Assembly (NCBI GenBank): GCA_016124195.1
Contig: WGOE01000003.1
Span: 372,001 to 436,000 of the forward strand
DNA: 64,000 nucleotides
Source: a bacterium
Lineage (GTDB): Bacteria > Pseudomonadota > Alphaproteobacteria > Rhodobacterales > Rhodobacteraceae
Reading direction: 5' to 3'
Shown piece after piece: positions 36,871 through 48,014 of the stretch (its first letter is position 1; every line of letters starts with the position of its first letter). The notes beneath the pieces are model-generated. The model worked only from the letters and a program-made list of their open reading frames with translations. It made no database searches and was not told the origin of the DNA. The position numbers were made by a program, and so were the translations under genes.

Positions 36871-37854
36871 ATGGATCACAGATCAGGCCCAAAACGCGCG
36901 ACGGACTACCTTTACCCGCCGGTCGAACCCTTCGACCAGCGCGTGCTTGACGTTGGCGGCGGTCACCGCATCTATGTCGAGCAATGTGGCAACCCTGCGG
37001 GCGTGCCGGTTCTGGTGCTGCACGGCGGCCCGGGCGGCGGCTGTTCACCCGCGATGCGCCGGTATTTCGATCCGGCGCATTACCGGGTCGCCTTGTTCGA
37101 CCAACGCGGCTGCGGCAGATCGCGGCCCCATGCCAGCGTCGACAACAACACAACCTGGCATCTGGTGTCCGACATCGAGGTGATTCGCCAAACCCTGGGG
37201 ATCGACCGCTTCATCCTGTTCGGTGGCAGTTGGGGCGCGGCTCTGGCCCTGATCTACGCCATCACGCATCCTGAACGCGTGGCCCATCTTGTCTTGCGCG
37301 GCATCTTCTTGATGAGCAAGACCGAGCTCAACTGGTTCTACGGCGGCGGCGCGGGTGCCTTTTTTCCCGACCTTTGGGCGCGGTTTGTGGCGCCCATCCC
37401 GCGCGAAGAGCGTGCGGATCTGATTGCCGCCTATCACCGCCGGTTGTTTTCCGGAAACCTGCCCGAGGAAATCCGGCTTGGCCGCATCTGGTCCAACTGG
37501 GAAAACGCGCTGGCCTCGGTTGCGCAGGACGGCCCGCTTGGCGAAGGGCCTGCCGACTATGCCCGTGCCTTCGCCCGGCTGGAGAATCACTATTTCCAGA
37601 ACGCGGGCTTTCTTGAGGCGGACAACTGGATCCTGCGTGAGCGCCATCGGATCGAGGGCATCGGCGCCACTCTGGTCCAGGGGCGGCTCGATATGATCTG
37701 TCCGCCGGTCGCGGCCTGGATGCTGTCGCAAGGCTGGGCCAAGTGCGAATTGCGCCTTGTTCCGCTGGCCGGTCATGCCCTGTCCGAGCCCGGGATCTCG
37801 GAGGCGCTGGTCGCCACGATGAACACGCTGCGGACGGCGGGCTTTGCGACCTAG
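36871..37854 (+). CDS. pip: Prolyl aminopeptidase
   Basis: A 327-residue alpha/beta hydrolase (peptidase family S33) that removes N-terminal proline. VLHGGPGGGCSP holds the oxyanion region. The nucleophile is in FGGSWGAALAL, and the acid and His are in QGRLDMICPP and LAGHALSEPG. DQRGCGRSRPH is the typical family motif. Length is normal. Its stop shares the tetranucleotide CTAG with the stop of the convergent dehydrogenase gene, so each strand reads TAG. Confidence 0.96.
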   Translation: MDHRSGPKRATDYLYPPVEPFDQRVLDVGGGHRIYVEQCGNPAGVPVLVLHGGPGGGCSPAMRRYFDPAHYRVALFDQRGCGRSRPHASVDNNTTWHLVSDIEVIRQTLGIDRFILFGGSWGAALALIYAITHPERVAHLVLRGIFLMSKTELNWFYGGGAGAFFPDLWARFVAPIPREERADLIAAYHRRLFSGNLPEEIRLGRIWSNWENALASVAQDGPLGEGPADYARAFARLENHYFQNAGFLEADNWILRERHRIEGIGATLVQGRLDMICPPVAAWMLSQGWAKCELRLVPLAGHALSEPGISEALVATMNTLRTAGFAT

Positions 37855-39917
37855 TCTTCCAGTCGTGTGACCTCACGGCGGAAGGGCAGGGCGTCGCCCC
37901 AATCGGGCGCGTCCAGTTCGCGCGCGTAACGGTGGCCCGCGAAAGTGGCCCAGGCGATGGGCGCCGGGGCGGCGGCATCGCCGATGACCTTGACGGAACG
38001 GATCCCCGCATCCGCCCAGTCCGCTTCCCGGGATTTGAGCGCCAGGTAGACCGCATCGTCAGAGCGGCGCGACGCCACCATGACCACCGAATCGCAGCCG
38101 ATCCGGGCCCTTTGGTTGGTATAGCTGCAATTGGTTTCGACTTCGCCGGCGTGGATCGCCACAAGGCCGGTGTTGAGCACGATCCGGACGCCCAGGGACA
38201 CCAGCCGCCGGTGGATCGAGGCTTGTTCCAGCGTGTTGGCGGTCCAGTCCGATACGAAGGCCGAGGGCGTGACCAAGGTCACTTCGCACCCCTGCCGTGC
38301 GCAAAGTTCGGCCAGCACGCCACCCATGTAGTAATGGTCGTCATCAAAGATCACCACCTTGCCCGCGGGCAGCCGCCCCTCCATCAGATCGTCGGGCGTC
38401 AAGACGGGCATCATGGCATCGACGGGCATGGGCACGACGTGTTGCCGCGCCACCCCATCCGCCCGCCAGTGCGATCCGGTGGCCACGCAGACGTGCTGGA
38501 AGCCGAACTCCATCACCTCGTCCGCGGTCAGCCGAGAGCCGGGGTACATCTGCACATTCGGTCTCTGTTTCAGCTGAAACAACCGGTAATCCGCCACCCG
38601 ACCCCAGGCTGACAGCCCCGGCAGCAGGCGTTCGCGCGCCACCCGGCCGCCGAAATCCGGCCGCGCCTCGGCCAGGGCCACGTCATAGCCGCGCATCGCC
38701 GCCGCGCGCGCCGCCTCCAGCCCGGCGGGACCCGATCCGATCACCAGGACCGTCTGACTTTCGCCCTTGGTGGCGATCTTCTCCGGATGCCAGCCGCGCC
38801 GCCATTCCTCCATCCAGGTCGGGTTCTGCGTGCAGCGGCCCATGCCTTGCGTCATGTCGCCGGTGATGCAGATGTTGCAGCCGATGCATTCGCGGATGTC
38901 CTCGACCCGGCCTTCGTCGATCTTGCGCGGCAGGAAAGGATCGGCAATCGAGGGCCGCGCGCAGCCGATGAAGTCCAGGCGCCCCGACTTGATCATCCGC
39001 GCCATCACGTCGGGCGAAGTGAAGCGCCCGACCCCCACCACCGGGCGCGGGGAAAGGTCGCGTATGCCGGTCACCCAGGCCTCTTGAGCCGCCTCTTCCT
39101 TGAAGCGCGACGGGCCCGAGCAATCCTCCCATGTCCCCATCGCGAGGTCCCACAAGTCGGGCAATTCCGCGTTCATCGAGACGAAATCGCGCACCTCGGC
39201 GTTGGAAAAGCCCAAGTCGCCGATGGTTTCATCCAGCGAGACCCGCAAGGTCAGCGCCATCGTATCGCCCACAGCCTCGCGCATGTCGGCGATGACCTCG
39301 CGGGCAAAGCGCGAACGGTTTTCCAGGCTGCCGCCATATTCGTCGCCGCGCTGGTTCGTCGCGCGGGAAAGAAAGTGCTGGAAGATGCCGAACCCATGCG
39401 CGCCGTACAGGCATATCAGGTCGAACCCCGCCAGCTTGCTGCGGCGGGCGGCGTTGACGAACCAGCGGCGCAGGTTGCGGATGTCGGTCTTGTCCATCGC
39501 GCGGGCCTGCACCGGGTCGTTGGTAAAGGTGCGGATCGGCAGGGCCGAGGGCGCCAGCGGCACCTCCTTGGTGTACATGTTCGGCCCGTTGATGCCGGAA
39601 TATGCCAGCTGGATGCCGGCCAGCGCGCCATGGGTCTTCATCGCCGCGGCCATCTTGGCGATCGAAGGGATGTCCTTGTCCTCCCACAGGCGCAGTTCGA
39701 TGAAGGGCGTGATCTCGGACGTGTGGTGCATCTCGGTCTGTTCGGTGAAGATGACGCCCCAGCCGCCCTCGGCCTTCACCCCGCGCATCGCGGCGGCGGC
39801 AGAGGGGTCACGGTAGCCGCCGCCATTGCAATGCGGCACCTGGTAGAACCGGTTCTTGGCCGTCAACGGGCCAACGCCAAGCGGTTGAAACAGAATGTCA
39901 TAGCGGGGGTCGCGCAT
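37851..39917 (-). CDS. Trimethylamine/dimethylamine dehydrogenase-like FMN-[4Fe-4S]-FAD-type oxidoreductase
   Basis: A 688-residue protein: an N-terminal TIM-barrel flavin domain (1-350), an iron-sulfur motif CIGCNICITGD with a further cysteine in GRCTQN, and a C-terminal dinucleotide-binding half (VLVIGSGPAGLEAARAAAMRG). Alignment from memory with trimethylamine dehydrogenase gives strong identity (NRFYQVPHC, VKAEGGW, CARPSIADPFLP, RRGWHPEK), including C30, which carries the covalent 6-S-cysteinyl FMN. The substrate bowl differs: Q at 60, E at 74 and A at 105, where TMADH has Y, S and W. It therefore probably oxidises a different N-alkyl amine. ATG 39917 follows AGGA; last gene of the five-gene operon. 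Confidence 0.85.
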   Translation of the reverse strand: MRDPRYDILFQPLGVGPLTAKNRFYQVPHCNGGGYRDPSAAAAMRGVKAEGGWGVIFTEQTEMHHTSEITPFIELRLWEDKDIPSIAKMAAAMKTHGALAGIQLAYSGINGPNMYTKEVPLAPSALPIRTFTNDPVQARAMDKTDIRNLRRWFVNAARRSKLAGFDLICLYGAHGFGIFQHFLSRATNQRGDEYGGSLENRSRFAREVIADMREAVGDTMALTLRVSLDETIGDLGFSNAEVRDFVSMNAELPDLWDLAMGTWEDCSGPSRFKEEAAQEAWVTGIRDLSPRPVVGVGRFTSPDVMARMIKSGRLDFIGCARPSIADPFLPRKIDEGRVEDIRECIGCNICITGDMTQGMGRCTQNPTWMEEWRRGWHPEKIATKGESQTVLVIGSGPAGLEAARAAAMRGYDVALAEARPDFGGRVARERLLPGLSAWGRVADYRLFQLKQRPNVQMYPGSRLTADEVMEFGFQHVCVATGSHWRADGVARQHVVPMPVDAMMPVLTPDDLMEGRLPAGKVVIFDDDHYYMGGVLAELCARQGCEVTLVTPSAFVSDWTANTLEQASIHRRLVSLGVRIVLNTGLVAIHAGEVETNCSYTNQRARIGCDSVVMVASRRSDDAVYLALKSREADWADAGIRSVKVIGDAAAPAPIAWATFAGHRYARELDAPDWGDALPFRREVTRLED

Positions 39918-39926
39918 GGCGTTTTC

Positions 39927-40853
39927 CTATCGCAGGATCAAGGCAGGCAGGATGTCCTGCAGAACGGTCTGGGCATGGTCGATGAAGGCGTTGATGGTCA
40001 GCGAGGCGCGGCTTCCGGTGGCGCACAAAAGCCCCATCCGCATCGGCTGCACCGGGCCGGTCAGCGGCACAAAGACCAGCGCCTTGCCGTCCGGGGCCTG
40101 GTCGGTCAAGGGCCGGAAATTGGCGATCGAATAGCCAAAGCCATTGGCGACCAGCGATTGCACCACCGCCATGTCGCGGCTTCTTTCGGCGATCTGCGGT
40201 CTTAGTGACGCTTTTTCAAAGAACGACAGGAAATAGTCGGAGGACAGCGGCAGGTCCAGCAGCACAAATGGCAGGTCGGCCAGATCACCAACCGAAAGCG
40301 TCTTGCGATGCGCCAGCGGATGGCTTTGCGGCAACATCACGAAGGGCGGCAGCGAGGCAAGCTCGACAAACTCCATATCGGCGGGCAGGGCGAGGTCATA
40401 GGTCAGCACCACATCCAGGGACGCATTGCGCAGGCCTTCGATCAACGCGGCCTGATGGGTTTCGGTCTGGCGAAACTCGACCTGCGGATAGCGGTCGATG
40501 AAGCCGCGCCTGAACTGCGGGACCAGAATCTGTGCAAAGGTCAAAAGACAGCCGAGGTTGAGCCGCCCCTTGACCGTGCCACGGAACTGCGCCGCCACCT
40601 CGGTCAGGCGGTCGGCTGCGGCAAGGGCGGCTGCGGCCTCGCGGATCATCTCGCGGCCGGATTGGGTGGGCGACATGCCGTGCGCGTGCTTGCGCACGAA
40701 AAGCGGCAGGCCGAATTCCGCCTCGAGCTGGGCGATGGCGGTCGAGATCGATGGGGCCGAGACGTTGAGCCGTTCGGCCGCCAAGGTGATCGACCCCGAC
40801 TGGCCCACCGCCACCAGGTATTCCAGCTGCCGCAGAGTGTAGCGCAGCGCCAC
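39927..40853 (-). CDS. LysR-family transcriptional regulator embedded in the amine operon
   Basis: A 308-residue LysR regulator. The N-terminal helix-turn-helix is LRQLEYLVAVGQSGSITLAA, then ERLNVSAPSISTAIAQLE and FGLPLFVRKHAHGMSPT. An effector-binding domain fills residues 90-300. It starts with GTG directly after the DUF1028 stop (TAGGTG) and ends 9 bp before the dehydrogenase start. It is thus inside the operon rather than divergent, which is unusual for LysR genes. It would autoregulate with its targets; a candidate site lies at 43296-43337. Confidence 0.92.
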   Translation of the reverse strand: MALRYTLRQLEYLVAVGQSGSITLAAERLNVSAPSISTAIAQLEAEFGLPLFVRKHAHGMSPTQSGREMIREAAAALAAADRLTEVAAQFRGTVKGRLNLGCLLTFAQILVPQFRRGFIDRYPQVEFRQTETHQAALIEGLRNASLDVVLTYDLALPADMEFVELASLPPFVMLPQSHPLAHRKTLSVGDLADLPFVLLDLPLSSDYFLSFFEKASLRPQIAERSRDMAVVQSLVANGFGYSIANFRPLTDQAPDGKALVFVPLTGPVQPMRMGLLCATGSRASLTINAFIDHAQTVLQDILPALILR

Positions 40854-41528
40854 CTAAGTCTCGCCCGGCACGCCGTAAGAGGGCGCCGCCCGCGGGTCGA
40901 TGGCGCGGGTCTGATAGGCCTCCATCTGGGGTTTGTAGATCTCCCAGGCGCGGGCGATATGGGCGATCGGGTCGCCCTCCTCCCAATCGCAGCGCAGTTC
41001 GGCAAGCGGCCAGGAGTGGTGGCCTACGATCAGAAGGCCGGCCGAATGCACCGGCCCCGCCTCCCCGCCAAGCGCGAGTGCTGCCTGCATCGCGGCAAGC
41101 AGCCGATCGCCGAGGTGGCCGGACGCCTGTTCGAAAGTCGTCACCATTGCGGCAGGAATGGCCTTGTCCGCCAGCAGATTACCACCGGCGGCGACATTCA
41201 CGCCCTCGGCCGCGCCCCAGACACCCAGGGCATTCGCGCCGGACCAGGTCGCGGTGCGGCCCTGCGCATCGATGCACAGCAACTGGCGATAGTCGGGGAA
41301 CCGCTCTTGCCGGACGGCCTCGGCCACGGCTTCTGGCGCAGAAAGGCCGGAGGCCAACAGGTCCAGCAGCAGATCGCCCAGCCCCGGGTTGGTTATGTTC
41401 TGGCTGGCCGCCGCGCCGATCCCGGCCCGGGCAAAGGCGCAGCGTGCCGCCACCGCGGGCGAGGATGACGATATTGCCATGCCGAATTGGCCGGTTTCAG
41501 CGCAGCGCGCGACGAGGGAAAACGTCAT
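40854..41528 (-). CDS. DUF1028 family protein (Ntn-hydrolase-like)
   Basis: A 224-residue DUF1028 protein. The N-terminus MTFSLVARCAETGQFGMAIS is characteristic, followed by SSSPAVAARCAFARAGIGAA, ASQNITNPGLG, YRQLLCIDAQG and GGNLLADKAIP. Structures of the family resemble N-terminal-nucleophile hydrolases, but no activity is firmly known. DUF1028 genes often sit beside RidA-type genes, as here. It starts one base after the RidA stop and is followed without gap by the LysR gene. Confidence 0.88.
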   Translation of the reverse strand: MTFSLVARCAETGQFGMAISSSSPAVAARCAFARAGIGAAASQNITNPGLGDLLLDLLASGLSAPEAVAEAVRQERFPDYRQLLCIDAQGRTATWSGANALGVWGAAEGVNVAAGGNLLADKAIPAAMVTTFEQASGHLGDRLLAAMQAALALGGEAGPVHSAGLLIVGHHSWPLAELRCDWEEGDPIAHIARAWEIYKPQMEAYQTRAIDPRAAPSYGVPGET

Positions 41529-41529
41529 C

Positions 41530-41946
41530 TCAGTCAGGAATGACAGCGGTGGCGTCGATCTCGACCAGCCAATCCGGCCGGGCCAAGGCCACAACGGTCA
41601 ACCCGGTGCAAACCGGATGCACGCCTTTGATATATTCGCCCATGGTGCGATAGACCGGCTCACGGTGGCGCACATCGGTCAGATAGACGACCAGCTTGAC
41701 CAGATGCTCCATCCTGCCACCGGCCTCTTCGATGACCTGTTTGATGTTCTGCATGACCTTGTGCGTTTGCGCCACGGGGTCATGGCTGCCAAGGTTCACC
41801 GCCGTATCAAGGTCTTGCGGGCAGGCGCCGCGGAACCAGACGGTGCGGCCGCCGCGCGTGACCACGGCATGGGCCAGGTCGTTGTCCAGCTTCTGTTCGG
41901 GATAGGTGTCTTTGGTGTTGAAGGGGCGAATGCGCTGGTGGGCCAT
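41530..41946 (-). CDS. RidA/YjgF-family protein
   Basis: A 138-residue RidA-fold protein: VMQNIKQVIEEAGGRMEHLV, KLVVYLTDVRHREPV and LVEIDATAV are conserved. RidA enzymes hydrolyse reactive enamine/imine products of amino-acid and amine metabolism. The carboxylate-binding arginine of canonical RidA (PARS motif) is not visible; the matching region reads HPVCTGLTVV, so it probably belongs to a different Rid subgroup. Its ATG overlaps the flavoprotein stop by one base (TGATG). Its place next to an amine dehydrogenase suggests it deals with an imine intermediate, which is inference. Confidence 0.88.
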   Translation of the reverse strand: MAHQRIRPFNTKDTYPEQKLDNDLAHAVVTRGGRTVWFRGACPQDLDTAVNLGSHDPVAQTHKVMQNIKQVIEEAGGRMEHLVKLVVYLTDVRHREPVYRTMGEYIKGVHPVCTGLTVVALARPDWLVEIDATAVIPD

Positions 41947-43235
41947 CAGGCTCTCCGTTGAAGGGCTGCGGTGGAGTCTTGCGAGGCAACGGCGGGACCT
42001 TCATAGGCCAGATAGGCGCGCTGCTTGGCAATGTGGTCGGCCACGTGTTTGGCATCGTGCCAGACGCCCCAGATGAAGGACGATCCGCGCCGCGATTGCC
42101 AGGGCAGGCCGAGGAAATAGACCCCCGGCTCGGCCGCCACGCCGCGCTGATGGCGGGGAAAGCCCTTCGCATCGAAGGTATCGACCTGCAACCAGCTGAA
42201 ATCCAGCGCAAATCCTGTGGCCCAGAGGATCGTGGTCACACCGGCTTGGGCAAGGTCCAGGCTGGCGATCGGATGGGTCACACATTCGGGGTCAGGGCCG
42301 ATCAGCCGCGCCGTGGGCTCTGCGGGCAGGTCGAGCCCGTTGCGGGTGATATAGGCGTCGGCCTCATCCAGCAATCCAAGGTAGTCCGCGTCGCCCTTGG
42401 CGAGATTCCGTGCCAGATCGGGGGCAAAGGTCATCACGCCATCGGCATAGCTTTCGGTCTTGCCCAACAGGGTCATGCCCCGCGCGGCCAGCTTGCGGAA
42501 ATCCACGGTGTGACCGCCATGCGCGCCACTGACCGCGATGGTCGTGTGTTCGGCCCCCGGCTGCGATTCCGCGTCCCATTTGTTGAGAACGCCCAGCCAC
42601 CAGACGAAATCGCGGCCGCGATAGCTGCGTGGCGGGCGGCCGTGCGGACCGACCGAAAGAAAGACCTTGCGCCCTGCCTCCAGCAACTCTGCCGCGATCT
42701 GCGCGCCCGAAGAGCCCGCGCCAACCACCAGAACCGCGCCGGGCGGCAGTTGCGCCGGGTTGCGATAGGCGCTGGAGTGCAATTGCATGATCCCGGCATT
42801 CTCAGGCACCAGCGTCGGGATCAGCGGGCGCTGAAAGGGGCCGGTCGCGGCGATCACATATTCCGCCTCGATGACGCCATCCGAGGTTTCCACGCTTAAG
42901 CCCGGCGCCCCGTTGAGCCGGCTGACCTTGGTCACAGCCACGCCGCACCGGATCGGCGCCTTGATCTGTTCGGCATAGGCCTCGAAATAGTCGGCCACGC
43001 CGTCTTTGCCGACAAAAGCCTCGGGGTCGCCCGGAAACGCCATCCCTGGAAAGCGATCGTGCCAGGCGGGGCCGTTGGCGACCAGCGAATCCCACCGCTC
43101 TGACCGCCAGCGTTCGGCGATCCGGCTGCGTTCCAGCACCAGATGGCCGACGCCACAGCGGGTCAGATGCTCGCTCATCGCGACTCCCGCCTGACCGGCG
43201 CCGACGACAAGCGCCTCGACTTTTTCAACTGACAT
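41946..43235 (-). CDS. NAD(P)/FAD-dependent monooxygenase-like flavoprotein (CzcO-like)
   Basis: A 429-residue flavoprotein. The FAD-binding motif EALVVGAGQAGVAMSEHL is at the N-terminus and the NAD(P)H-binding motif VLVVGAGSSGAQIAAELL is near residue 170. ATGPFQRPLIP and ILWATGFALDFSWL match the FMO/CzcO group. It may N- or C-oxygenate a small substrate. ATG 43235 (MSVEKVEALVV) has AGGACGGG upstream; ATG 43256 is an alternative. First gene of the five-gene operon. The classical FMO signature FxGxxxHxxxW is not evident, so FMO chemistry is uncertain. Confidence 0.82.
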   Translation of the reverse strand: MSVEKVEALVVGAGQAGVAMSEHLTRCGVGHLVLERSRIAERWRSERWDSLVANGPAWHDRFPGMAFPGDPEAFVGKDGVADYFEAYAEQIKAPIRCGVAVTKVSRLNGAPGLSVETSDGVIEAEYVIAATGPFQRPLIPTLVPENAGIMQLHSSAYRNPAQLPPGAVLVVGAGSSGAQIAAELLEAGRKVFLSVGPHGRPPRSYRGRDFVWWLGVLNKWDAESQPGAEHTTIAVSGAHGGHTVDFRKLAARGMTLLGKTESYADGVMTFAPDLARNLAKGDADYLGLLDEADAYITRNGLDLPAEPTARLIGPDPECVTHPIASLDLAQAGVTTILWATGFALDFSWLQVDTFDAKGFPRHQRGVAAEPGVYFLGLPWQSRRGSSFIWGVWHDAKHVADHIAKQRAYLAYEGPAVASQDSTAALQRRA

Positions 43236-43346: not shown

Positions 43347-43841
43347 TTAGGCTGACGCTAAGGCCCAGGCAGCGATGGCGGCAGGGTCCGGTGGCAGGTC
43401 CTGTGCCATTTCGCCGGCAAAGCCCATCAGGTCGGGCAGATTCAGTGCGTTGACCCCGATCAGGACCGGAAGCCCCCGGTCGAGTGCCTGCACGATCAGC
43501 GGCACGTAGCCCCGGCCAGAGGCTTCGAGCTTGCCGAACTTGTTCACGATCAACACTTGCGCCCGCAAAAGCCGGGTCGAGACTTCCATCACCGCGCGTT
43601 CCAAGGCGCCGCCGTCCAGACGACAGCCCTTGGCCGCGCGCCCCAGATTTTGATTGATCCGGATCACCGGACCATCGGGCAGGACCTGCAACTGCATGTC
43701 GCAACTGGGGTCGGTGGTTTCCAGCGCAAAGGTCCCGGCAAGGCGAAGCCCGCCCGCCTGCATCGCCCGGACGGCCGCAGTCAGGCAGGCGTCGGTCTGG
43801 CCCCGGCCCGGCAGGCTGACGAAGCGCAGACCTGAGGTCAC
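43347..43841 (-). CDS. DUF2478 family protein
   Basis: A 164-residue protein of the DUF2478 family, a P-loop-related group of unknown function often found near molybdate genes in alphaproteobacteria. [16 protein letters not shown] resembles a degenerate nucleotide-binding loop without the GK(S/T). [31 protein letters not shown] and [15 protein letters not shown] are the conserved blocks. ATG 43841 overlaps the dxs stop (ATGA), making it the last gene of the xseB-ispA-dxs operon. An overlapping open frame at 43315-43863 lacks any family resemblance. Confidence 0.8.
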
Positions 43842-46628: not shown

Positions 46629-46864
46629 ATCCCCTCCACCGGGGTGGTGCCCACGGCCTTGCCCTCGGCGGCGCGGATCAGTTCGACCTTTTCCTCGGCA
46701 TCCTTCAGCTTGCGCGCGCAAAGCGCCTTGAGCGCAGCGCCGCGTTCGTAAAGTGCAATCGACTGTTCCAGCGCCACGTCGCCGCGTTCCAATTGGGTGA
46801 CGACTTTTTCCAGTTCGGTCATGGCTTCTTCGAACGACAGTTCGGCTACGGGTTTTTCGGTCAA
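46625..46864 (-). CDS. xseB: Exodeoxyribonuclease VII small subunit
   Basis: A 79-residue protein with the XseB core: LSFEEAMTELEKVVTQLERG, DVALEQSIALYERG and LCARKLKDAEEKVELI. It joins the large XseA subunit in ExoVII, which degrades single-stranded DNA. No xseA is in the window. Its ATG overlaps the HDAC-like gene stop and its end overlaps ispA. The xseB-ispA-dxs order is common in proteobacteria. Confidence 0.96.
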   Translation of the reverse strand: MTEKPVAELSFEEAMTELEKVVTQLERGDVALEQSIALYERGAALKALCARKLKDAEEKVELIRAAEGKAVGTTPVEGM

Positions 46865-47784
46865 AGACCACGCTCCTGCAAGACACCTACATGCGCCGCG
46901 ACCGAAGCCGTCAGCGCATCCAGATCATAGCCTCCTTCCAGACAGGATACCACCCGGCCCTGACAATGGCGGTCGGCGAGATCGCAAAGCCGCTGCGTCA
47001 GCCAGCGATAATCAGCCTCGACCCAGTTAAGCTGGGCCAGCGGGTCGGCGGCATGGGCATCAAAACCGGCGCTGACCAGGATGAGTTCGGGCTTGAACGC
47101 CTCGAGCGCGGGGAAGGCCTCGGCCTCATAGGCGGCGCGCATAACGGCGCCGTCGCTGTGGGGCGCCAGCGGCAGGTTAAGGATTTGCCCATGGGCCCCG
47201 CGTTCGCTGGGCTCGCCAGAGCCGGGCCAAAGCGGCATCTGCTGGCTGGTGACGAACAGGATGCGCGGCTCGTCCCACAGCAGGGCCTGCGTGCCGTTTC
47301 CGTGATGCACGTCGAAATCGACGATGGCGACCCGCGACAGACCGCGCCGGTCCAGCGCGTGCCGGGCGGCGATCGCCACGGTGCCGAACAGGCAGAACCC
47401 CATCGCGACAGAGGCCTCGGCATGGTGACCCGGGGGGCGCGCCAGCACGAAGGCATTCCTGGCCTCGCCGTCCAGAACGGCATCGACGGCGGCGCAGGCT
47501 CCGCCCACTGCGCGCAAGGCGGCCTCCCACGAGCCGGGCGACATCCAGGTGTCAGGATCCAGTTGCACGGCTCCGCTGTCAGGTTCAGCCTTGCGGATCG
47601 TGTCGATATAGGCCTGCGGATGACAAAGCCGCAGGTCGCTTTCCTCGGCCATGGGAGAGATCTTGCGCGTCAGGTCCATACTGGCCAGGCCGCGTTCCAC
47701 TGCGGCCACACGCTCTGCCCGTTCGGGATGTCCCTTCGGGGTGCGGTGATGATTGGAAACCGGGTGGGCGAAAAGCAGCGTCAT
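46861..47784 (-). CDS. Histone deacetylase-family (class II / acetylpolyamine amidohydrolase-like) hydrolase
   Basis: A 307-residue zinc hydrolase of the HDAC/AcuC/AphA superfamily. Active-site motifs are complete: RPPGHHAEA, VDFDVHHGNGTQ (zinc ligands D and H) and VSAGFDAHAADPL. Bacterial members deacetylate acetylpolyamines, acetoin-system proteins or unknown small molecules; the substrate here cannot be chosen. ATG 47784 has GAGGG six bases upstream. It heads the operon HDAC-xseB-ispA-dxs-DUF2478. The 230 bp upstream, to the cheD end, shows no further gene and should hold the operon promoter. Confidence 0.9.
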   Translation of the reverse strand: MTLLFAHPVSNHHRTPKGHPERAERVAAVERGLASMDLTRKISPMAEESDLRLCHPQAYIDTIRKAEPDSGAVQLDPDTWMSPGSWEAALRAVGGACAAVDAVLDGEARNAFVLARPPGHHAEASVAMGFCLFGTVAIAARHALDRRGLSRVAIVDFDVHHGNGTQALLWDEPRILFVTSQQMPLWPGSGEPSERGAHGQILNLPLAPHSDGAVMRAAYEAEAFPALEAFKPELILVSAGFDAHAADPLAQLNWVEADYRWLTQRLCDLADRHCQGRVVSCLEGGYDLDALTASVAAHVGVLQERGL

Positions 47785-48014
47785 GGGCATCCCTCTGTTT
47801 GCGCCAATCAAGAAGAGATACGTGCAGACGCGCAAGCCGGATGCGTGCCGGACAGATCGAAAGATCGCGGTTACTGGGATAGCGGCTGCGGCCAGAGCAC
47901 TTGTCGGTTCGACGCGATCCGGCCCTGCGGATGGGTCGCGCGCATCCCACCGCCTTCAAGGCCCGGTCAAAGCGGCACAAGGCCTTCCCAGTTCGCTGTC
48001 CGGAATTGTCCTTT

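Follow-up and report, generated by a model that had tools for sequence, protein, structure and literature searches.

The locus described here lies in a window of 64,000 nucleotides, i.e. the whole stretch of DNA that was analysed, and consists of five genes that follow one another on the minus strand (Table 1). The gaps between the FAD monooxygenase-like (FMO), Rid, DUF1028, LysR and dehydrogenase genes, in that order, are -1, 1, 0 and 9 bases. All five reading frames are intact, and the family of each gene is backed by Pfam. The coordinates and the Pfam assignments agree with the initial annotation, which had described five packed genes with the same gaps. None of the five encodes an aldehyde dehydrogenase, a transporter or an M20 amidohydrolase.

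Two genes, one for a DUF2478 protein and one of dxs type, lie upstream of the operon. The gene downstream is convergent, encodes an alpha/beta hydrolase and overlaps the dehydrogenase gene, the last of the operon, by 4 bases. A promoter scan returned 0 promoter-like sites against 0.9 expected, and a terminator scan 2 terminator-like sites against 3.4 expected.

Table 1. Genes of the operon and their positions in the window
Feature	Position	Strand	Description
Dehydrogenase, predicted histamine dehydrogenase (6-S-Cys-FMN / 4Fe-4S type, EC 1.4.9.1)	37851..39917	-	688 aa; 77.9% identity to 6DE6
LysR regulator, HinK-like	39927..40853	-	308 aa, GTG start; best solved match 6m5f, 176 bits
DUF1028 protein, HinH-like by gene order	40854..41528	-	224 aa; PF06267, 212 bits
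Rid-family protein, HinL-like by gene order	41530..41946	-	138 aa; PF01042, 66 bits
FAD monooxygenase-like protein (FMO), HinF-like by gene order	41946..43235	-	429 aa; Pyr_redox_3/FMO-like (Pfam)

The dehydrogenase and its substrate pocket

The best relative of the dehydrogenase among proteins of solved structure is the histamine dehydrogenase (HDH) of Rhizobium sp. 4-9 (6DE6), with 535 of 687 residues identical and a score of 1263 bits. It is followed by the HDH of N. simplex (3K30, 823 bits), 6L6J (654 bits) and trimethylamine dehydrogenase (TMADH; 1DJN, 529 bits), whose match spans residues 2-683. The 6L6J entry is named only as an Oxidored_FMN domain-containing protein. The flavin-link residue Cys30 and the 4Fe-4S cysteines 344, 347, 350 and 362 are kept in all 89 aligned rows, the window protein included. 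In the alignment with 1DJN, the residues Tyr60, Ser74 and Trp105 of the TMADH pocket are replaced by Gln, Glu and Ala, and a TMADH function was rejected on account of this replacement. The initial annotation had noted the retained cysteines and the three substitutions, and had described the locus as an amine-oxidation operon with a pocket unlike that of TMADH; all of these points are supported.

The available text of PMC10180351 places Gln60, Glu74, Phe72, Tyr171, His174, Arg225, Trp263 and Asp265 in the active site of Rsp HDH (the HDH of Rhizobium sp. 4-9), and Ile69, Asn110, Phe176 and Asp354 were likewise targeted. The window dehydrogenase carries Q60, I69, F72, E74, N110, Y171, H174, F176, R225, W263, D265 and D354, identical to the residues named for Rsp HDH. 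Since Gln60 and Glu74 are named for Rsp HDH and are kept in the window protein, they are regarded as histamine-site residues. Throughout the 89 rows, the named residues are invariant except Phe72 (87 rows, with Tyr in 2) and Asp265 (77 rows, with Glu in 12). Its sequence makes it very probable that the window enzyme is an HDH.

The regulator and the three linked proteins

Histamine catabolism in P. putida U and P. aeruginosa is described in the available part of PMC8231116, in which HinFLHG turns imidazole-4-acetate into aspartate, the PAO1 genes hinF, L, H and G are PA5393, 5392, 5391 and 5390, and HinK is a LysR regulator responding to imidazole-4-acetate. The products in P. putida are given, in the accessible portion of PMC6467879, as an FAD monooxygenase of EC 1.14.13.5 (HinF), an enamine deaminase (HinL), an amidase (HinH), an amidase of EC 3.5.1.8 (HinG) and a histamine-pyruvate aminotransferase (HinC), with HinE as a second, dispensable aldehyde dehydrogenase. 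The GenBank accessions given there for HinF, HinL, HinH and HinG are AWA45229, AWA45230, AWA45227 and AWA45228, respectively. A route via imidazolone acetate and N-formyl-aspartate is proposed in the part of PMC2542419 that is available, and EC 1.14.13.5 was not found in the available part of PMC1940265. The hin order F-L-H-G equals FMO-Rid-DUF1028-M20, and from this order and the product names we infer that HinH corresponds to DUF1028 and HinG to M20. The one Pseudomonas record among the matches listed, a plasmid (H100), matches only in part and carries no annotated hin genes.

Among solved structures, 6m5f and 3fzv match the regulator best by sequence, at 176 bits each, and the third match reaches 88 bits. 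The entry 6m5f, titled "Crystal structure of HinK" (P. aeruginosa), is also first by Foldseek E-value for the model of the LysR protein, while OxyR structures superpose on this model better than HinK does (TM-score of 0.80 vs 0.64). By sequence the LysR protein is HinK-like, and it may sense imidazole-4-acetate.

By analogy with hinF, the FMO is predicted to be an imidazoleacetate 4-monooxygenase (EC 1.14.13.5). Its assignment as an MSMEG_0569 flavoprotein (TIGR04046) was set aside, as it scores 361 bits against an NCBIfam cut-off of 498. The group of seven less similar FMO loci described below, which has no Rid, DUF1028 or M20 match, was also counted against that assignment.

The model of the DUF1028 protein (pLDDT of 93.5) matches 2imh and then, more weakly, proteasome-type subunits at a TM-score of about 0.4. 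All 95 aligned rows have Thr2, which follows Met in 94 of them. The proteasome-type matches, combined with the conservation of Thr2, suggest an Ntn-hydrolase-like fold with Thr2 as the candidate nucleophile. A search of the open-access literature returned no report on DUF1028.

The Rid protein has Cys113 at the position that aligns with an arginine of the solved structures 3r0p and 3k0t, which we take to be the catalytic arginine. Across 97 aligned rows this position is Ser in 71, Cys in 25 and Phe in 1. A conserved arginine is essential for imine hydrolysis by Rid proteins according to the available part of PMC4433059, in which no residue number is given. With Cys113 in place of the arginine, and no arginine there in any of the 97 rows, the earlier idea that the RidA-like protein handles the imine from amine oxidation is not supported, and a function as imine hydrolase was rejected.

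Gene order in other genomes

The surroundings of the dehydrogenase were compared in 80 HDH loci, which are the best 80 of at least 583 confirmed matches, so that the sample leans to close relatives. Neighbours were scored by tblastn at E ≤ 1e-10 over at least 60% of the query length, with added identity cut-offs of 45% for LysR, 50% for FMO, 45% for Rid, 40% for DUF1028, 40% for M20, 50% for aldehyde dehydrogenase and 45% for PotD. The nearest HDH loci, among the matches listed, are Rhodobacteraceae records. Within these best 80 of at least 583, LysR and FMO genes are found at 64 loci each, Rid at 62 and DUF1028 at 61. M20 is present at 35 of the 80, a PuuC-like aldehyde dehydrogenase at 34 and a Pot-type binding protein at 23. 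The trio of FMO, Rid and DUF1028 is complete at 55 of the same 80 loci and wholly absent from 10, comprising 4 short stretches and 6 of the full 22 kb.

The window order of the five genes on one strand, taken from tblastn best matches with adjacency not required, recurs in 31 of these best 80 loci, 15 of which have no aldehyde dehydrogenase match in the locus. With this order recurring in 31 of 80 related loci, and FMO, Rid and DUF1028 together in 55, the grouping is not due to chance.

More distant homologues served as a control for the pocket. Among 198 genomes of the window's family (its own included), 49 have a dehydrogenase homologue at E ≤ 1e-200, and 20 loci of more distant homologues were examined with flanks up to about 7 kb, shorter at contig ends. 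Eight homologues at 63-66% identity are identical to the window enzyme at the 14 checked positions except 265 (Ala in five; Gln, Glu and Asn in one each). The complete FMO-Rid-DUF1028 set accompanies one of these eight (L191), DUF1028 with a LysR gene another (L187), and a LysR gene alone a third (L188). As the same pocket, apart from position 265, is present in all eight and the full gene set in one, the pocket alone does not guarantee a hin neighbourhood. The remaining 12 homologues, at 48-56%, include 10 that differ at several pocket positions and two (L192 and L193) that keep Q60, I69, F72 and E74; a hinF-type FMO is found at none of these 12 loci, Rid with DUF1028 at one (L192) and M20 at one (L193). 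TMADH-type Y60, S74 and W105 occur in copies of this group at L195, L196 and L200, with no FMO, Rid, DUF1028 or M20 match in the stretches examined.

A second comparison started from the FMO in a sample of Pseudomonadota, in which 55 of 398 genomes (the window's own included) match at E ≤ 1e-60. The best 38 of the 60 places outside the own genome were examined with flanks of about 8 kb, contig ends permitting, the other 22 being lower-scoring. The only identity cut-offs applied to these loci were 58% for FMO, which splits the two groups, and more than 60% for HDH. At the 31 loci with FMO at 58% identity or above, two of which come from one genome (G308), Rid is found at 28, DUF1028 at 27, M20 at 22 and HDH at 8. 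At the seven loci below 58%, no Rid, DUF1028, M20 or HDH is found within flanks of about 8 kb. The gene set at L154, a locus of the group of 31, is adjoined by genes for an aldehyde dehydrogenase and a class-III aminotransferase, with a LysR gene between.

The order FMO-Rid-DUF1028-M20 is also present on named plasmids of Arthrobacter, Burkholderia, Mycolicibacterium and Streptomyces (L098, L099, L100 and L103). A Rhizobium plasmid has FMO-Rid-DUF1028 with argE nearby, and an Acetobacter plasmid has the same genes in a different order, together with an aldehyde dehydrogenase. Rid-DUF1028-M20 occurs without hinF on one E. coli and one Klebsiella plasmid, implying that the trio is not exclusive to histamine.

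A putative histamine route and its relation to known systems

From homology and gene order, from which both the substrate and the individual steps are drawn, we consider it highly likely that the five-gene operon breaks down histamine. Weighing against this are the missing genes for an aldehyde dehydrogenase, a transporter and an M20 protein, the 10 HDH loci devoid of FMO, Rid and DUF1028, the single complete set beside the eight homologues at 63-66% identity, the plasmids with Rid-DUF1028-M20 but no hinF, the higher TM-score of OxyR and the side activities of Rsp HDH described below. In the first step, for which the homology is strong, histamine dehydrogenase would convert histamine into imidazole acetaldehyde and ammonia, with the electrons leaving via 6-S-Cys-FMN and the 4Fe-4S cluster. 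An aldehyde dehydrogenase encoded elsewhere in the genome would then yield imidazole-4-acetate, which the HinF-like FAD monooxygenase, as gene order and family suggest, would turn into imidazolone acetate. Ring opening and nitrogen removal, through N-formimino- to N-formyl-aspartate, would be divided, in one way or the other, between the HinH-like DUF1028 and the HinL-like Rid proteins. Finally, an unlinked HinG-like M20 amidohydrolase would release aspartate and formate from N-formyl-aspartate. The operon has no gene of its own for the aldehyde dehydrogenase and deformylase steps, and hence both must come from elsewhere in the genome. A candidate for the latter is the M20 gene at G000:C2:130264-131418 (60% identity), which is unlinked to the operon and lies outside the window.

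The same dependence on unlinked genes might be read as the mark of a partial or relict pathway, in which histamine is deaminated and detoxified without supporting growth, the genes of the second and fifth steps being absent from the locus. This reading overlaps with the histamine route itself, and we regard it as unlikely. For the cluster-type aldehyde dehydrogenase and the Pot-type binding protein, the best matches of this genome, which lie outside the window, reach 43-46% and 36%, respectively, and an Amidohydro_3-cluster gene that adjoins HDH in near relatives has a match of 26%, all of which speaks for a partial pathway. Against it, the five frames are intact, the genome contains 17 aldehyde dehydrogenase matches in addition to the M20 homologue, and HinE, the second aldehyde dehydrogenase of P. 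putida, is dispensable (PMC6467879, available part).

A different primary amine as the main substrate, such as agmatine, 1,3-diaminopropane or putrescine, with the neighbours handling the products, appears quite improbable. Rsp HDH does oxidise two of these, agmatine at 10% and 1,3-diaminopropane at 13% of its rate with histamine (PMC10180351, available text), and a Pot-type polyamine transporter adjoins the enzyme in relatives. Moreover, 6-hydroxypseudooxynicotine is the substrate of an enzyme that is 46% identical to the one from Rhizobium (PMC5500553, available text), so that substrates vary in the wider family. However, the window protein, at 77.9% overall identity, keeps every named histamine-site residue of Rsp HDH, FMO, Rid and DUF1028 are linked in the order of the hin genes for imidazole acetate, and the best solved match of the regulator is HinK.

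The proposal of the initial annotation, a pathway not described before that would serve a methylated, cyclic or acidic amine, with RidA hydrolysing the imine, is favoured by a pocket unlike that of TMADH at positions 60, 74 and 105 and by the reported clustering of Rid genes with FAD amine oxidases (PMC4433059, available part), but is hardly tenable in view of the characterised HDH at 77.9% identity, the Rid protein without the conserved arginine, and the Y60/S74/W105 paralogues (L195, L196 and L200) with no FMO, Rid, DUF1028 or M20 match in the stretches examined. The evidence that the initial annotation had named as speaking against its proposal, a close characterised homologue with a known substrate and the same gene set, is largely what was found: the homologue exists and the neighbours match the known hin genes.

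For the preferred histamine route, both halves, i.e. the histamine dehydrogenase enzyme and the hin pathway, are already known, and the discovery is therefore a modest one. What seems to be new is a flavin/iron-sulphur HDH as the front end to the hin core, an arrangement that is frequent in the window's family and present in Shinella. No description of HDH joined to hinFLH was found in the open-access literature as covered by the titles and the starts of abstracts of the papers listed, which is weak evidence of absence. Elsewhere the hin core adjoins a primary-amine oxidase or an aminotransferase.

A broader joint reading, which we advance tentatively as falling a little short of probable, is that FMO-Rid-DUF1028(-M20) forms a portable core from imidazole acetate to aspartate. 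This core would have been combined with three histamine-deaminating enzymes of unrelated kinds, namely HDH, a primary-amine oxidase (Arthrobacter, L098) and an aminotransferase (HinC; the class-III enzyme at L154). Within it, DUF1028 would open the imidazolone ring as an Ntn hydrolase with an N-terminal threonine, and the Rid protein without arginine would be a formimino (C=N) hydrolase. If this joint reading is true, functions would be provided for DUF1028 and for a subgroup of Rid proteins. The operon also gives both DUF1028 and the Rid proteins that lack the conserved arginine a function open to testing. Histamine dehydrogenase, which is used in histamine tests for food, would gain a probable physiological context, and the finding points to histamine consumption through a modular route in many Rhodobacteraceae and Shinella.

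Among the known systems, the closest to the window enzyme as a protein is Rsp HDH (6DE6, UniProt Q60I59), with the same Cys30, four 4Fe-4S cysteines and histamine-site residues; this comparison concerns the protein itself. TMADH (1DJN) belongs to the same family by sequence and differs in its pocket, as described above. The 6-hydroxypseudooxynicotine oxidase Pno of Agrobacterium S33 is an FMN / 4Fe-4S enzyme related to histamine dehydrogenases and acts on another substrate; the identity of 46% given for it in the available part of PMC5500553 refers to the HDH of Rhizobium sp. 4-9 and not to the window enzyme.

At the level of gene clusters, the plasmid of Arthrobacter sp. ERGS1:01 (L098) shares FMO-Rid-DUF1028, with M20 and a LysR gene adjoining. 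A primary-amine oxidase, an aldehyde dehydrogenase and an aspartate ammonia-lyase are nearby, and no HDH is annotated in the stretch. Primary-amine oxidases are a class of copper enzymes. The operon resembles the hin pathway of Pseudomonas (hinABCD, hinFLHG, hinIJ and hinK) in an order of FMO, Rid and DUF1028 that is like hinF-L-H and in a regulator similar to HinK. Whereas the hin pathway starts with the aminotransferase HinC, the window operon contains no aminotransferase gene and has HDH in its place. Unlike hin, it unites the front-end enzyme and the regulator in one operon, without a hinG-, hinD- or transporter-like gene.

Histamine dehydrogenase homologue of a congeneric genome

A genome of the same genus as the window carries a single homologue of the histamine dehydrogenase (HDH) at E ≤ 1e-200 (locus L184, contig G469:C102), with 66% identity. 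The pocket positions checked are kept, except for Gln at position 265. Genes of the histamine pathway (hin) type were not found around this homologue in the 10.4 kb fetched, a stretch ending at the contig end.

Plasmid-borne Rid-DUF1028-M20 sets

On an E. coli plasmid (L205) and a Klebsiella plasmid (L206), the Rid-DUF1028-M20 set is accompanied by genes for an ABC transporter, a quinone oxidoreductase and a dehydroquinate dehydratase, and tblastn detected neither HinF nor HDH in the two plasmid stretches. A DUF1028 match is present in 105 Klebsiella plasmid records, the neighbourhood having been examined in one. The plasmid set may serve a different substrate.

Genes flanking the operon and its relatives

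In some relatives, the gene adjoining the hin-type genes encodes either the alpha subunit of a Rieske oxygenase or an HpaB-like monooxygenase. These loci are listed below with two genes upstream of the operon in the window.

Coordinates of flanking and plasmid-borne genes
Feature	Coordinates	Position
DUF2478 gene	window 43347-43841	just upstream of operon, adjoining dxs-type gene
Histone-deacetylase-family gene	window 46861-47835	few kb upstream of operon
Rieske oxygenase alpha subunit / HpaB-like monooxygenase genes	L071:6506-7636; L010:2131-3651	beside hin-type genes
Rid-DUF1028-M20	L205:8562-10848	E. coli plasmid
Rid-DUF1028-M20	L206:8562-10848	Klebsiella plasmid

On the downstream side, a gene of a cluster assigned to Amidohydro_3 by a scan of one representative (L059) lies immediately 3' of HDH in the near relatives L002, L007, L008, L009, L014 and L030. 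Its best homologue in the window's genome reaches only 26% identity. HDH in the window overlaps a convergent hydrolase gene.
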